From: Peptococcaceae bacterium 1109
GTDB lineage: Bacteria; Bacillota; Limnochordia; Darwinibacteriales; Darwinibacteriaceae
Assembly (NCBI GenBank): GCA_001028815.1
Contig: LDJB01000001.1
Span: 949,634-1,013,633, forward strand
Direction: 5' to 3'
Length of the DNA stretch: 64,000 nucleotides
Below the pieces are notes generated by a model. The model was not told where the DNA came from. It was given only the letters and a program-made list of their open reading frames with translations, and searched no databases. This document shows, piece after piece, positions 10,763 to 64,000 of this stretch (the first letter of the stretch is position 1; every line of letters starts with the position of its first letter). Position numbers and translations under genes: made by a program.

Positions 10763-11539
10763 TCAGCCAATTTTGACCTTCTCGCAGCCAAGCTCCCTTA
10801 GGGCGTCTAGCCAGGCTTGGCTTGTTTCCTTGGATGGGTTCGGCAGGCCGGGCAAAGCTGGATCCCGGCGCAGCCTTTTAGCTTTGTCATTACCGAGATT
10901 GTGGTAGACCATGATCTCAATCCCCCGCAGTCGGGGGTACTTCTTCTCCAGCTGGGCGATGGCCTGAAAGTGTTCCTGGCTGTCGTTGATGCCAGGGATG
11001 AGAGGGCAGCGCAGGATGATCTCTGCCCCCGCCTCGTAGAGCACCTCGAGGTTGGCCAGGATAAGCTCCTGGCCAACTCCTGTGTAGCGCTTGTGATCAG
11101 GCCCGGTGGCCTTGTAATCGAAGAGGAAGAGGTCCACATGGGGCAGGATGGCTTTGTACCGGTCAGTGGGGGCGTGGCCGCAAGTTTCCATGCAAGTATG
11201 GATGCCCTGGGCTTTGCACTCCTTGAGCAGCGCCAAAGAAAAGGGAAACTGGGCCATAGGCTCGCCTCCAGACAAGGTCACGCCGCCGCCTGAGCTCTCG
11301 TAGTAGGCCCTATCTGCCACAACCTCCGCCATCACCTCATCCACGGTGTAGTGTTTCCCCACAACCTGAGTGGTGCCATCGTGGTTGTAAAACACTTCCT
11401 GTTCAAAGGACCACGATTCTGGATTGTGGCACCACTGGCAGCGCAAGGGGCACCCCTTTAAAAAAACGGTGGTGCGGATCCCCGGCCCATCGTGGAAAGA
11501 GGCCCGCTGGATATCGAATATCATGCCGTGCAAGGTCAT
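10763..11539 (-). CDS. Glycyl radical enzyme activase (radical SAM)
   Basis: A 258-residue radical SAM protein. The cluster motif is Cys30-x3-Cys34-x2-Cys37 within LKGCPLRCQWCHNPE, and GGEP at 91-94 binds the SAM amino group. It would use a [4Fe-4S] cluster to make the 5'-deoxyadenosyl radical and install the glycyl radical on the enzyme encoded 6 nt upstream (13780-11546). Most activases of dehydratase-type glycyl radical enzymes carry an inserted ferredoxin domain with extra cysteines after the first motif. Here the segment 38-70 has none, giving a compact PFL-activase-like architecture. RBS AAGGAG lies 3 nt before the ATG and partly overlaps the upstream stop region. Confidence 0.92.
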   Translation of the reverse strand: MTLHGMIFDIQRASFHDGPGIRTTVFLKGCPLRCQWCHNPESWSFEQEVFYNHDGTTQVVGKHYTVDEVMAEVVADRAYYESSGGGVTLSGGEPMAQFPFSLALLKECKAQGIHTCMETCGHAPTDRYKAILPHVDLFLFDYKATGPDHKRYTGVGQELILANLEVLYEAGAEIILRCPLIPGINDSQEHFQAIAQLEKKYPRLRGIEIMVYHNLGNDKAKRLRRDPALPGLPNPSKETSQAWLDALRELGCEKVKIG

Positions 11540-11545
11540 CGCTCC

Positions 11546-13780
11546 TTAGTAGAGCGTGCGGCTGAGAATCTCCAACTGCACATCCCGATCGAGCTCCACA
11601 AAGCGGGCGCTGAAGCCGCCGACGCGGACAAAGATATGCTGGTACTTCTCAGGCTCTCGCATCGCTGCCTCCAGGTCGCCGCGATTGACCACGGTAATCA
11701 TGGCTTGGGCGCCGCCGTTGTCAAAGTAGGCCTTCAGGAGGGCTTGCAGTTTGTCTCGATTGCTGGTAAACAGCTCGGGGCTGAACTTCATGTTCTGCAC
11801 CGCCCCTGCGTGGATAGCAGGGTCCAGTTTCACCAAGGAGTTCAGCATGGCAGTAATCCCCTTCTTGTCCATACCGCCAGTGGGATTGTTGCCGTTTGCC
11901 ATGGACACCCGAGCTTTACGCCCATCTGGGGACGCAGCGGTCCAGCGGCCCATGAGGGTGTTCGCGCTGTTGTTTATGATAACCACCAAGTAGGAGTGGA
12001 GATCGGTCTTCTCACGCTGGTTGCGCACTGTGTGGCACACGTGTTCGTGTACGGCCACAGCCATGCTGTCCGCCTCAGGATCGTCATTGCCATACTTAGG
12101 TGCTGCCAAGAGCTGCTCCCTGATGTGCTCGTAGCCTTCGAAGTTAGAGTCGAGAGCAGCCAAAAGCTCCTCAGGAGAGATGCGCTTTTCCTCGTAAACG
12201 AGCTTCTTAATGGCCGTCAAGCTGTCAGCGGTATTGGTGTTGCCGTAGGTTTCCAGGGTGCCGCCGAGATAGCGGATTCCCCCAGAAAAGATCCCCTTGC
12301 CCCGCTCAATACAGTCATCATAGAGCATGCTGAGGTAGAGGTTGGCCATGGTTTCCCCAACCACTTCGTATTCCATCTGCTCCTGCATGGCCATGAAGTC
12401 CACTAGGTACTCCACCTGCCGTTTATATGCTTCAAACAGCTCGTCAAAAGTGGCAAAGGAGGACAAATCTCCCAGCTCAAGCCCGACCCGTTCACCAGTA
12501 GTGGGATCCACGCCATTGCGCATGGTCACTTCCAAGCACTTCAAGAGATTAATCACGCCGCTGGGAGTGCCGAAACTGCGGTGATTAATGATATACTCTC
12601 CGCAGCCAAAGGGAACATACTGTTCCGCTTCTTCCTGGGGCAGCTCAAAGGCATGCTCCACTGCGGGGATGTTTACATCGTCGTTATAGAGAATGGGATA
12701 GGTGCGTCCTTCCCCAATCACTTCCAGAGCCTTCTCCATGAGGGCAGGATTCATCCCCTCGTAGAAACGCAGGGACAGCTGGGGCTCAATCTCCAGCACT
12801 GTCCGGGTAGCCTCCATGGCCAGCAGAGCGAAGCGGTCTGCATTGGCTTCGTTGGGGCGGCCCTTCCCGCCGATGATCACCCGCCCGTGGACCCTTGTGT
12901 TCCGGTCTGCCATAAGCTGCCAGAGCGACTGCAGAAGCTTGAGGGCCTCAGCTTCGGTGAGGCGGCCTCCATCCAAGTCAGCAGCTAAAAAGTCACCCAA
13001 GTACACGTCCATACGCCCGTAGTTGCGCACATCTGCCACAATGGAGTACAGCCACATGAGCTGAATGGCTTCCCGGAAAGTTCGGGGTGCTTCTGTCTTG
13101 ATGGCCTGCAGTACCTCTGCCATAATCCGAAGTTCCCGTGCCCGCTCGGCGCCGGCGGTGTCTGCAAGCCTGAGGGCCTCATCGGCGTAGAACTGGCAGG
13201 AGTCAGCGAGGACGTCCAGGGCAGCAATCATGCCCGCGAAGAGCTCCCCATCGCCCCCGGCCCGCTCTGCGTTTTCCTGTGCTGACCTAATCTCTTGCCG
13301 AAGGCCAGGAAGGCCTAGGGTAACAAGCTTCCCGTAGTTGGGGTAGGCACCGCACAGGCGGTAGAGAGGAAAGACCATGCCAGGTTCGTTCATCCAGTTG
13401 TCTGATGGCATAACCTCCAGCATTTCTGGGGTATAGCGCGCCCGAACCTTCGTGGAGGTGTTTTCCTTCGACCAAAACTCCAACATGGCCTCGATCTCTG
13501 CCCGATCTTCAGGAGAAAGATCGGAGCGCTGCAGCACTTCCTTGAACCTTGCCGGAAGGTGATAGTAACCAAAAGCAGTCTGGCCCCATTCATCTGGGGT
13601 AAAACCTACCGCTGCAGGACGAATGCGGCCCGCAAACAGATCCCCCGCCTCAATGGGCCCCAAGGCCCCAGGATACTGGGCCTTGAGGCATGCTGCTTCC
13701 CTGATGGCAGGGTGGTCGTTTATGTGCCGCTGATAAGCCTTGGTAAACTCCCGCTCCCGTTGGAACACCTTATCAGCCAT
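11546..13780 (-). CDS. Glycyl radical enzyme, eliminase-like, substrate unknown
   Basis: A 744-residue glycyl radical enzyme. The C-terminal radical loop reads VRVGGFSARF with Gly722 as the radical site; the active-site loop reads VPFGCGEYIINH with Cys393 and Glu395. The Cys-x-Glu pair is the pattern of glycyl radical dehydratases and lyases, where Glu acts as base, and differs from the double Cys of pyruvate formate-lyase. The residue between is Gly instead of the common Val. It sits among glycosidases and sugar-modifying genes, starts 2 nt after the AllA-like gene, and is followed by its own activase. A sugar, polyol or sugar-acid elimination is the likely reaction. No microcompartment genes are present. 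Substrate unassigned. Confidence 0.9.
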   Translation of the reverse strand: MADKVFQREREFTKAYQRHINDHPAIREAACLKAQYPGALGPIEAGDLFAGRIRPAAVGFTPDEWGQTAFGYYHLPARFKEVLQRSDLSPEDRAEIEAMLEFWSKENTSTKVRARYTPEMLEVMPSDNWMNEPGMVFPLYRLCGAYPNYGKLVTLGLPGLRQEIRSAQENAERAGGDGELFAGMIAALDVLADSCQFYADEALRLADTAGAERARELRIMAEVLQAIKTEAPRTFREAIQLMWLYSIVADVRNYGRMDVYLGDFLAADLDGGRLTEAEALKLLQSLWQLMADRNTRVHGRVIIGGKGRPNEANADRFALLAMEATRTVLEIEPQLSLRFYEGMNPALMEKALEVIGEGRTYPILYNDDVNIPAVEHAFELPQEEAEQYVPFGCGEYIINHRSFGTPSGVINLLKCLEVTMRNGVDPTTGERVGLELGDLSSFATFDELFEAYKRQVEYLVDFMAMQEQMEYEVVGETMANLYLSMLYDDCIERGKGIFSGGIRYLGGTLETYGNTNTADSLTAIKKLVYEEKRISPEELLAALDSNFEGYEHIREQLLAAPKYGNDDPEADSMAVAVHEHVCHTVRNQREKTDLHSYLVVIINNSANTLMGRWTAASPDGRKARVSMANGNNPTGGMDKKGITAMLNSLVKLDPAIHAGAVQNMKFSPELFTSNRDKLQALLKAYFDNGGAQAMITVVNRGDLEAAMREPEKYQHIFVRVGGFSARFVELDRDVQLEILSRTLY

Positions 13781-61142: not shown

Positions 61143-61766
61143 TTAGAATCTCCGGGGAAACTGCCGCACGATGCCCCGCCACATCTCATCTGCCATCTCC
61201 AGGGATTGGGTTTCTACTTCGTCGTAAGTGTCGATACTACCCTGATAGTTCCCCTGCAGCATCTGCACGGCTTCCCTTTGGACCATGCGCAGATGATCAA
61301 AGAGCATTTCTGTCCAGGTGCGCTCGGACCAGAAAGGATTGACCCGGGCAAAGAACGCCGCGATTTCCCGGGCATTACGGAACCACCGCCGTTCCGCATC
61401 GGCAACCCGTCCTCCATCACCGATCTGCGCTGCCCTGACCAGCTGAGCCGCGATGACCAAGTGCTCGTTGAGGAGCCTGGCAAACTCTGCAGCAATACGC
61501 CTGCCATAGAACGGCCGCAGCGCATCGGCAAAATCCTGCGGATTGCGCAGCAGCCGACGGATGACGAACGGCTCATCGGGCAGATTGAAGACAATGCTCT
61601 CAATGGTCAGCCTTGTCCACACATCGTGCTGTTCCCAAAGCTCTCGCATCTCTTGGTTGAGGTTTAGGGAAGCGGTGCTGATGCGAGGTAACCTTGGTAA
61701 GATAAAGGGCAAAATCCTATCTGGGCGGACGCTCCAGCTTCCCTGCATGTCTTGTGTGTGATTCAA
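61143..61766 (-). CDS. Conserved helical Firmicutes protein
   Basis: A 207-residue, nearly all-helical protein from a TTG start with GGGAGGTG upstream. The pattern LWEQHDVWTRLTIESIVFNL, then LRPFYG, FARLLNEHLVIAAQLV, and VNPFWSERTWTEMLFDHLRM matches a widespread Firmicutes family of unknown function (recognised by pattern). It has no signal peptide or clear catalytic motif. Internally it appears to contain a repeat of two helix pairs. Sits between the PFL activase fusion and the Dam gene, with hairpins on both sides, so it is probably its own transcription unit. Confidence 0.75.
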   Translation of the reverse strand: MNHTQDMQGSWSVRPDRILPFILPRLPRISTASLNLNQEMRELWEQHDVWTRLTIESIVFNLPDEPFVIRRLLRNPQDFADALRPFYGRRIAAEFARLLNEHLVIAAQLVRAAQIGDGGRVADAERRWFRNAREIAAFFARVNPFWSERTWTEMLFDHLRMVQREAVQMLQGNYQGSIDTYDEVETQSLEMADEMWRGIVRQFPRRF

Positions 61767-61842: not shown

Positions 61843-61870
61843 GAAAAACCCCACCTTGTTGGTGAGGTTT
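61843..61870 (-). terminator. Terminator after PFL activase fusion
   Basis: AACCCCACC and GGTGAGGTT arms with one mismatch and a 5-nt loop; on the reverse strand the stem is followed by TTTTTCTTT. It ends the PFL transcript. Confidence 0.85.
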
Positions 61871-61876
61871 GCCTTC

Positions 61877-63379
61877 TCAGTATACATAGCTTTCTAGGGC
61901 TTCGAGGTCTTTGACAATGATCACTCTGTTGCCCACGAGTTCAATATAGCCCAGTTCCCGAAACTCTCCTAGCTTCCTAGTGATAGTCTCACGCCGCAGG
62001 CCAGAGTAGTTGCCAAGCTCTTCCCGGCTCATGGAGAGTTCAAGGCGGATTCCTTCCTCTGTTTCCACCCCAAGGCGCTTCACAAGCTTCAAAAGGAGCC
62101 CCGCGGTCTTCATAGAGGCATTGCTGGTGGCAAGCCGTTGAATGAGCTCCTCAGCCCAGCGGATTCGTTCAAAACTCTTACTCAGCACGCTGCGGAGTAC
62201 CGCAGGAGAGTTGTAGAAGTACTTGTCGAAAGTGGCCTTGGGAATAGCCACCACTTTGCAGTCTGTCAGGGCCTGCCCGATATAGCGGTAAGGAGTCTCC
62301 ACTAAGAGATTCAGTCCTCCCACAAAGTCCCCGTCCCGGTAGATATAGAAGATCTGCTCTTCCCCGTCCATGGTATTCACGAAGATCTTCATCTGGCCCT
62401 TGTAGATGAGATACATAAAGTCGGGAGCATCGCCTGTCTTGAAGACAAGCTCCCCTGCCTTAATGCTAGACAAGATCACTTCACTGAGGACATGTGACAC
62501 ATCTTCCTCCGGCACGTCGCTCAAGAGAGGAAGCCCCCGCAGGACCTGGAACATCTCCGCCTTTTCCGCATCTGAGGCAATCTCCTTCGCCTTTAGCTGC
62601 CTATACTTCTCTTCGCGGGCTTTCCCGTTTTGTGCCCGCTCCTCCCGCAAGCCTGCCGCGAAAAGCTTGTTCGCGTAGATCTCCAGTTCCTTGGCGCGCT
62701 CTTTGTCCATAGGCTCTACTCCCTCTAGCCGATAAGGTATCCCTAACTCCCGGTACTTGGACACCCCGGAGGTGTGGTAGGGCAGAATCTCAATGCGATC
62801 CACCTTGGCCCGAATGGGTTCTAAGAGGCGGATAAACTGCTCCATGGATTCCTCGCTGTCGGTAAGGCCCGGAACCATCACGTGCCGCACCCAGATCTGG
62901 CCCTTAAAACCGTAGAGATCCAGTTTGGCGAGGAAGTCTAGGTATGCCTGGAAGCCATCGATGGTGGTAAGCTCCCTGAACGCCTCCCGGTCAAAAGCCT
63001 TGACGTCCAAAATGAGAGTATCCACAAGGGGCATGATTTTCTGGTAATACCGGGGATCGCCAAACCCAGAGGTGTCCACGCAAGTATTATATCCTTCCCT
63101 TTTAAGGAGTTTCAAGGACCTATATACAAACTTCCCTTGAAGGAGGGGTTCTCCCCCAGAGAAGGTGATGCCCCCCTCTTCGCCGTAGTAGGAGCGGTAT
63201 CGCCCCGCGAACTCCACGATCGCCTCAGGAGTCATGATGCGGCCCCCTGCTTTTTTCAGGGCATCAGGATTATGGCAGAAAGCGCAGCGGAGGGGACAGC
63301 CCTGCAAGAAGAAGATTGTGCGGGTCCCTGGCCCATCCACCAGTCCCATGCTTTCAATGGAGTGTACGAAACCCTGCAA
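61877..63379 (-). CDS. PFL-activating enzyme fused to Crp/Fnr regulator
   Basis: A 500-residue two-part protein in one open frame, from a TTG start with GAGGGG 8 nt upstream. Residues 1-245 are a complete pyruvate formate-lyase activase: Cys28-x3-Cys32-x2-Cys35, GGEP at 75-78, and ILPYHTSGVSKYRELG. A charged linker (246-275) leads to a Crp/Fnr module: a cNMP-binding jelly roll at about 278-400 (IKAGELVFKTGD, RDGDFVGGLNLL) and a winged HTH at 445-490 (SREELGNYSGLRRETITRKL). No Fnr-type Cys cluster is seen in the regulatory half; only Cys374 is there. It follows the PFL gene by 28 nt. I read it as an activase that also acts as, or tethers, a transcription regulator. Confidence 0.93.
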   Translation of the reverse strand: MQGFVHSIESMGLVDGPGTRTIFFLQGCPLRCAFCHNPDALKKAGGRIMTPEAIVEFAGRYRSYYGEEGGITFSGGEPLLQGKFVYRSLKLLKREGYNTCVDTSGFGDPRYYQKIMPLVDTLILDVKAFDREAFRELTTIDGFQAYLDFLAKLDLYGFKGQIWVRHVMVPGLTDSEESMEQFIRLLEPIRAKVDRIEILPYHTSGVSKYRELGIPYRLEGVEPMDKERAKELEIYANKLFAAGLREERAQNGKAREEKYRQLKAKEIASDAEKAEMFQVLRGLPLLSDVPEEDVSHVLSEVILSSIKAGELVFKTGDAPDFMYLIYKGQMKIFVNTMDGEEQIFYIYRDGDFVGGLNLLVETPYRYIGQALTDCKVVAIPKATFDKYFYNSPAVLRSVLSKSFERIRWAEELIQRLATSNASMKTAGLLLKLVKRLGVETEEGIRLELSMSREELGNYSGLRRETITRKLGEFRELGYIELVGNRVIIVKDLEALESYVY

Positions 63380-63407
63380 AACTGATCCCCTCTTTCCTAA
63401 ACGCTAT

Positions 63408-64000
63408 TTACACAGCCTCGTGGAACGTCCGGTTGATTACATCCAGCTGATGCTCGCGATCGAGGCGGTTGAAGCGCACTGCGTAGCCAGAAACCCGAAT
63501 GGTGAGATTGGGGTATTTATCGGGGTTTTCCATGGCATCGATGAGCAGTGCTTTATCGAGCACGTTCACGTTCAGGTGGAACGCGCCCCGGCCAAAATAG
63601 CCGTCCATGATGTTTGTCAAGTTGGTTACCTGTTCGGGCAGGTTCTTGCCGAGTGCCGCGGGTATGATGGTAAAGGTGTTGGAAATCCCATCTTGGTTTA
63701 CCCGCTTGTAGGGCAGTTTGGCCACTGAGTTCAGAGAGGCCAAAGCACCCATGGTATCCGCACCGTTCATAGGGTTAGCGCCAGGGGCAAAGGGCTCGCC
63801 CTTCTTTCGCCCATCGGGGGTAGCGCCCGTCTTCTTACCGTACACTACGTTAGAGGTAATGGTGAGCAGCGACAAGGTGTGCTCCGCGCCCCTGTATGCT
63901 TGGTGCTGGCGAAGGGCCTCCATGAAGTACTCGTTCACCATGATGGCAATTTGGTCCACCCGGTCATCGTCGTTGCCGTAGCGAGGGAAGGCACCCTCCA
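63408..64000 (-). CDS. pflB: Pyruvate formate-lyase, C-terminal part
   Basis: The reading runs off the right edge; about 197 residues are visible. They include [29 protein letters not shown] and the radical loop [12 protein letters not shown] with its Gly near the end, all typical of PflB. It makes acetyl-CoA and formate from pyruvate and CoA in the cytoplasm under anaerobic conditions. The downstream gene encodes an activase, here fused to a Crp/Fnr protein. The active-site double Cys is outside the window. Confidence 0.92.

Follow-up and report, generated by a model that had tools for sequence, protein, structure and literature searches.

The fused gene and its neighborhood

Near the end of the window, i.e., the whole stretch of 64,000 nucleotides that was analyzed, a single unbroken open reading frame of 500 codons on the minus strand encodes a PFL-activating enzyme (PflA) and a Crp-type transcription regulator, both of them complete (Table 1). 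The Pfam matches above cut-off are Radical_SAM (residues 24-182, E 2.5e-25), Fer4_12 (residues 14-107), cNMP_binding (residues 305-387, E 2.4e-19) and HTH_Crp_2 (residues 426-497, E 3e-16). A sequence-only reading of this DNA had proposed that one frame joins a complete activase to a module of a cNMP-binding domain and a winged helix, and had placed Cys28, Cys32 and Cys35 and a GGEP motif at residues 75-78. The open reading frame, Pfam and the model TIGR02493 confirm this architecture, on the minus strand, and the motifs are found at exactly these positions.

The upstream neighbor is pflB, the product of which contains a Gly_radical domain (Pfam, E 1.9e-35), and the gap between pflB and the fused gene is 28 bp. 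Since this gap is so short and a hairpin follows the fused gene, the genes are predicted to form an operon with the order promoter, pflB, pflA/crp, terminator. Further downstream, on the same strand, lies an open reading frame of 207 aa (window 61143-61766), for which NCBIfam and Pfam gave no match at the thresholds used.

Table 1. Features of the fused gene and of the predicted pflB operon. Positions are those of the window unless marked otherwise.
Feature	Position	Strand	Basis or remark
Fused pflA-crp gene	61877..63379	-	500 aa; start TTG 63379; Pfam and TIGR02493
PFL-activating-enzyme (radical SAM) part, residues 1-240	62660..63379	-	Pfam; TIGR02493; 3c8f; model compared with 3cb8
CxxxCxxC holding the [4Fe-4S] cluster, residues 28-35	63275..63298	-	Sequence and alignment
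GGEP motif, SAM binding, residues 75-78	63146..63157	-	Invariant in 27/27 fusion proteins
Linker, residues 241-285	62525..62659	-	Charged, predicted to be mostly helical, no Cys; length differs among relatives
cNMP-binding-type sensor domain, residues 286-390	62210..62524	-	Pfam and residue alignment of 65 homologues
Crp winged helix-turn-helix, residues 426-497	61889..62104	-	PF13545 and PF00325
Recognition helix RETITRKLG, residues 463-471	61967..61993	-	Equivalents of CRP R180, E181 and R185 kept
Ribosome-binding site of the fused gene, AAGAGGGG, 7 nt before TTG	63387..63394	-	Sequence reading
Terminator-like hairpin followed by T-rich run, directly 3' of the fused gene	61846..61870	-	L085 2480-2504
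pflB, 3' part (762 aa as a whole; continues beyond the window end)	63408..64000	-	Pfam
pflB promoter, operator AAGTGATTCAGGTCACAG and TATAAT	G000:C1:1015386-1015428 (genome)	-	~1.8 kb past window position 64000

The activase half

The N-terminal half passes the NCBIfam equivalog TIGR02493 for PflA (243.3 bits, cut-off 231.75). The E. coli PFL-activating enzyme (3c8f) matches the part comprising residues 1-240 with an E-value of 1.3e-44, and this part of an AlphaFold model of the protein superimposes on 3cb8 with a TM score of 0.88, at 35% identity over 244 aligned columns. Among 27 aligned fusion homologues, Cys35 is invariant, and Cys28 and Cys32 are kept in at least 90% (one sequence is truncated ahead of position 35). 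Thus, the fused protein shares with PflA enzymes the full-length fold, the CxxxCxxC and GGEP-type motifs and the neighboring pflB gene, but it differs from them by an additional C-terminal Crp module of ~220 residues. The genome encodes two glycyl radical enzymes, each with an adjoining activase, which leaves the fused protein as the only apparent PFL activase. Judged by these likenesses, the N-terminal half is most likely the cognate activase of the adjoining PFL.

The second glycyl radical enzyme is a PFL2-3-like protein of 744 aa that scores under every NCBIfam equivalog cut-off. It is encoded together with its own activase of 258 aa (window 10763-13780, minus strand), next to genes that look like sugar-metabolism genes, i.e., for glycosidase-, epimerase-, sugar isomerase- and alcohol dehydrogenase-like proteins.

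Distribution and origin of the fusion

When 84,980 species genomes were scanned, 20 records proved to contain fusions, with 57-85% identity. Within the same order, the fusion is present in 23 of 37 genomes, as 19 complete and 4 partial copies without internal stops; the genomes of the species-genome scan and of the nearest-genome search overlap, and their counts are not additive. A search around Anaerococcus added seven further fusions, in Peptoniphilaceae-type genomes. Altogether, 27 fusion proteins were aligned, which are 44-85% identical to the window protein. All of them match the five Pfam models, including the combination of a cNMP-binding-type domain and HTH_Crp that places them in the Crp/Fnr superfamily.

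An assembly error or frameshift that artificially joined two genes was considered, as relatives exist in which the two genes are unfused neighbors, some of them only one stop codon apart. However, intact fusions without stops occur in many independent assemblies over the full range of identity, and the probability of an artefact is vanishingly small. The two observations that the sequence-only reading had named as decisive against it, i.e., a break of the frame near the junction and a lack of the fusion in relatives, were both looked for: neither stop nor break was found in 19 full-length relatives and the 19 complete copies, which are overlapping sets, and the fusion is present in the same-order genomes as described. 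The artefact explanation is rejected.

Separate, neighboring pflB, pflA and crp genes are found in 14 genomes, mostly of Peptoniphilaceae, i.e., Anaerococcus sp. Marseille-P3915 (L025), Mageeibacillus UBA5442 (L027), L154-L161, L163, L165, L167, and L171. In L025, L154, and L156, the frame of pflA continues into crp, interrupted by a single TAG. This codon is part of the sequence TAGGAG, the likely ribosome-binding site of crp; hence, one substitution would suffice to join the frames. The fusion probably arose from adjoining pflA and crp genes within one operon. In trees of the activase and of the Crp part, the fused proteins form two well-supported neighboring groups with a few unfused or unlinked members inside. 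A single fused clade is not rejected in the activase tree (AU p 0.175), whereas the Crp tree, in which long branches are joined, needs two changes. These trees are compatible both with one fusion followed by later fissions and with two fusions.

DNA-reading and pocket residues of the Crp half

The Crp halves and their unfused counterparts (65 homologues) were compared residue by residue with CRP and FNR from the E. coli MG1655 genome. In CRP, R180, E181, and R185 are the residues that recognize G2 and the base pair G4:C4 in TGTGA (PMC11253593). The equivalent residues are R463 and E464, each kept in 64 of the 65 homologues, and R468, kept in all of them. The nearest Crp paralogue in the same genome, the only paralogue of the only genome compared, has Gln where CRP has R180.

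The ligand pocket is different. The cAMP contacts of CRP are replaced across the 65 homologues: S62 by Y345, E72 by G or A, S83 by Y366, T127 by A or S, and S128 by E410, while R82 is variable. The protein also fails the NCBIfam CRP equivalog, with 62 bits against a cut-off of 266. Control by cAMP is, therefore, not supported. Equally, no cysteines are found at the positions aligned with the FNR cluster ligands 20, 23, 29, and 122 in any of the 65 homologues, and the modules contain only 0-3 cysteines in total, mostly 0 or 1; an FNR-like cluster with which the Crp half would sense oxygen is rejected because these cysteines are absent. Instead, Y345, N357, Y364, and Y366 are invariant in all 65 homologues and Y347 is present in 63, irrespective of whether the proteins are fused or not, and this set of Tyr and Asn residues is unlike those in CRP, FNR and the paralogue of the same genome. 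As judged from the alignment, the pocket signature is independent of the fusion. It points to a distinct ligand or, alternatively, to a filled pocket without ligand, as in DdrI (PMC11253593).

The fused protein resembles E. coli CRP in its fold, its DNA-reading residues, its putative site (TGTGA-N6-TCACA) and the class II position of that site, but it differs in the replaced cAMP contacts, the apparent single-operon target and the attached enzyme. FNR (E. coli; Aliivibrio fischeri, 9qlt and 5cvr) is the top sequence match among the solved Crp/Fnr proteins (E 2.9e-20) and shares the anaerobic fermentation setting, but the fused protein lacks the cluster cysteines and has R in place of V at the half-site-reading position 208. 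DdrI of Deinococcus, a cAMP-independent member of the CRP family, also has the residues of the cAMP pocket replaced and binds TGTGA-N6-TCACA (PMC11253593); it is, however, not fused, and the replacing residues differ.

The operator at the pflB promoter

The pflB promoter of this genome consists of AAGTGATTCAGGTCACAG, 20 nt and TATAAT. A perfect GTGA-N6-TCAC site precedes pflB at all 21 loci of the species-genome scan with fused or split genes for which upstream DNA was available, with a chance expectation of ~0.005 per promoter. In contrast, it was present in 1 of 52 control pflB promoters, whose genomes showed no such module next to pflB. In nearly all of the 21 promoters, TCAC and the -10 box are 22 nt apart, and the spacer between operator and -10 box is unconserved, with no -35 hexamer apparent. 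From this near-constant spacing, the center of the site is predicted at ~-41.5 relative to the start deduced from the -10 box. As -41.5 is the position of class II activators (PMC5957442), these promoters have the features of class II promoters dependent on Crp/Fnr proteins, i.e., a site at ~-41.5 and no good -35 element, with the start again taken from the -10 box.

When whole genomes were searched for the operator combined with the -10 box, the pattern was found in 21 of 23 carriers of the fusion and in 4 of the 38 remaining relatives, and genomes with a match usually had a single one (61 genomes; Fisher p 2e-10 without correction for relatedness, the genomes being related and the counts not representing independent events). 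One site per genome suggests a regulator with a single target in the clade with fusions. In the Peptoniphilaceae-type family, the pattern is present in 35 of 44 carriers and also in 21 of the 86 genomes that lack a strong homologue, where many of the matches are probably due to chance in AT-rich DNA. In at least some of the nine carriers without the strict pattern, the -10 box differs.

In the genome of the window, the pflB promoter is the sole match when the -10 box is required, in a pattern that covers this one geometry. A looser pattern, GTGAT-N5-TCAC-N-G with one mismatch, gave 272 matches vs. 86 for the reversed-pattern control, too many to interpret. A larger regulon in this genome was therefore not retained, although other site geometries are possible.

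The operator also accompanies genes that are unlinked. In one genome (G150), a distance of 104 kb separates the fused gene from pflB, and an operator with a -10 box precedes each of them. In five others (G164, G167, G152, G154, and G123), the crp homologue is located elsewhere and the operator is still found before pflB. The suggestion of the sequence-only reading that the activase could also set pfl expression receives strong support, at the level of sequence, from the distribution of the operator over carrier and control promoters and from the marking of both genes where they are unlinked.

Proposed function and alternatives

We consider it probable that the fused protein is bifunctional, being both a PFL activase and a class II activator dedicated to the operon that encodes it. 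The radical SAM half would install the glycyl radical in the product of the preceding gene, PFL. The Crp half, as a dimer, would bind the single GTGA-N6-TCAC site at ~-41.5 of the pflB promoter and activate pflB together with its own gene, thus exerting positive autoregulation. It would sense neither cAMP nor an Fe-S cluster of its own but receive its input via the conserved Tyr/Asn set that it has in common with the unfused relatives; our guess for the ligand is a metabolite of the pyruvate node. Owing to the fusion, as much regulator as activase would be made, and enzyme, activase and activator would constitute one self-reinforcing switch.

The position of the operator, overlapping the place of the -35 element, would also be compatible with repression, in which the Crp half covers the -35 region until a signal releases it. 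A repressor, however, requires neither the loss of a recognizable -35 element nor the near-constant class II spacing, and we regard this option as distinctly improbable. Even less credence is given to the possibility that a different Crp/Fnr protein uses the operator, with the fused Crp half being a passenger or having other targets. The genomes do contain further Crp/Fnr paralogues, but in both genome comparisons the operator tracks this Crp subfamily, whose R463, E464, and R468 are almost or fully invariant, the one paralogue compared lacks the R180 equivalent, and both genes carry the site when they are unlinked.

Less improbable, but still rather unlikely, is a coupled sensor, i.e., a radical SAM trigger enzyme in which the activase half controls DNA binding by the Crp half, be it through its oxygen-sensitive cluster, through binding of SAM or product, or through docking on inactive PFL. 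The activase state or the level of free PFL would then determine how strongly pfl is transcribed, in analogy to BirA and biotin, and the synthesis of PFL would be metered by the PFL that is still to be activated or by damage that oxygen does to the activase. The single polypeptide is conserved across wide divergence, enzymes such as BirA and PutA provide a precedent (PMC8249747; PMC6978683), and, with no cluster in the Crp half, only the activase half could supply an oxygen signal that depends on a cluster. However, where crp is a separate gene, the operator, its position and the pocket residues are the same, and the regulator must act without covalent input, which makes covalent coupling unnecessary. 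In addition, the linker has 33-34 residues in one group and 47-50 in the others when the same span is compared, and its sequence is poorly conserved, which argues against rigid transmission, and the Mageeibacillus locus has separate genes although its closest relatives have the fusion. The unfused homologues and the variable linker thus speak against coupling as a requirement, and the earlier proposal that DNA binding could depend on cluster state or PFL docking is not supported. In an AlphaFold model of the monomer (mean pLDDT 83, pTM 0.56, C-helix pLDDT ~49-55), both folds are recognizable and the domain arrangement is unreliable.

Relation to known trigger enzymes

Several E. coli enzymes, including BirA, NadR, PepA, PutA, and PyrH, contain DNA-binding domains and are known as trigger enzymes (PMC8249747; PMC6978683). 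Like BirA, PutA, and NadR, the fused protein combines a metabolic enzyme and a DNA-binding domain in one chain and appears to regulate its own pathway; by its architecture and its operator, it would act as an enzyme with a DNA-binding domain on its own operon. BirA is also similar in that it modifies its target enzyme post-translationally. Unlike these proteins, the fused protein is a radical SAM enzyme with a Crp-type domain, it is a predicted activator rather than a repressor, and coupling between its halves is only hypothetical. No radical SAM enzyme or activase of a glycyl radical enzyme with its own transcription regulator was found described in the open-licence literature, subscription journals and preprints being outside this search, in agreement with the sequence-only reading, according to which this architecture is not known from any described example with a characterized function. 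Trigger enzymes as such are already known, whilst one that is a radical SAM activase and a predicted activator is apparently new.

For this group of fermenting bacteria, which are uncultured, the locus offers a concrete and testable circuit of one protein, one operator and one operon. As the genes occur naturally in fused form, one stop codon apart and unlinked, they provide material for asking what the fusion adds to regulation.

Further sites in genomes with unlinked crp homologues

Where the crp homologue is an orphan, the operator with a -10 box was also observed before the gene for pyruvate:ferredoxin oxidoreductase (L261, L263, and L264) and, in one genome, before that for a FocA-type formate/nitrite channel (L272). 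In G121, it precedes the gene for lactate dehydrogenase (L271), besides the pfl site. The putative targets of the unfused Crp subfamily share a role in pyruvate dissimilation, and a wider pyruvate regulon is possible. In anaerobic Bacillota, this subfamily with its distinct pocket signature appears to govern pfl and the genes for pyruvate:ferredoxin oxidoreductase, lactate dehydrogenase and the formate channel.

At five further loci from genomes with an orphan crp homologue (L257, L258, L259, L262, and L269), the pattern lies before an operon for an ABC transporter, apparently one of the methionine uptake type; the ATPase encoded at L257 contains a NIL domain. At L262 and L269, the pattern abuts a TTGACA -35 box, and the geometry is, therefore, unlike that of the pfl promoters.
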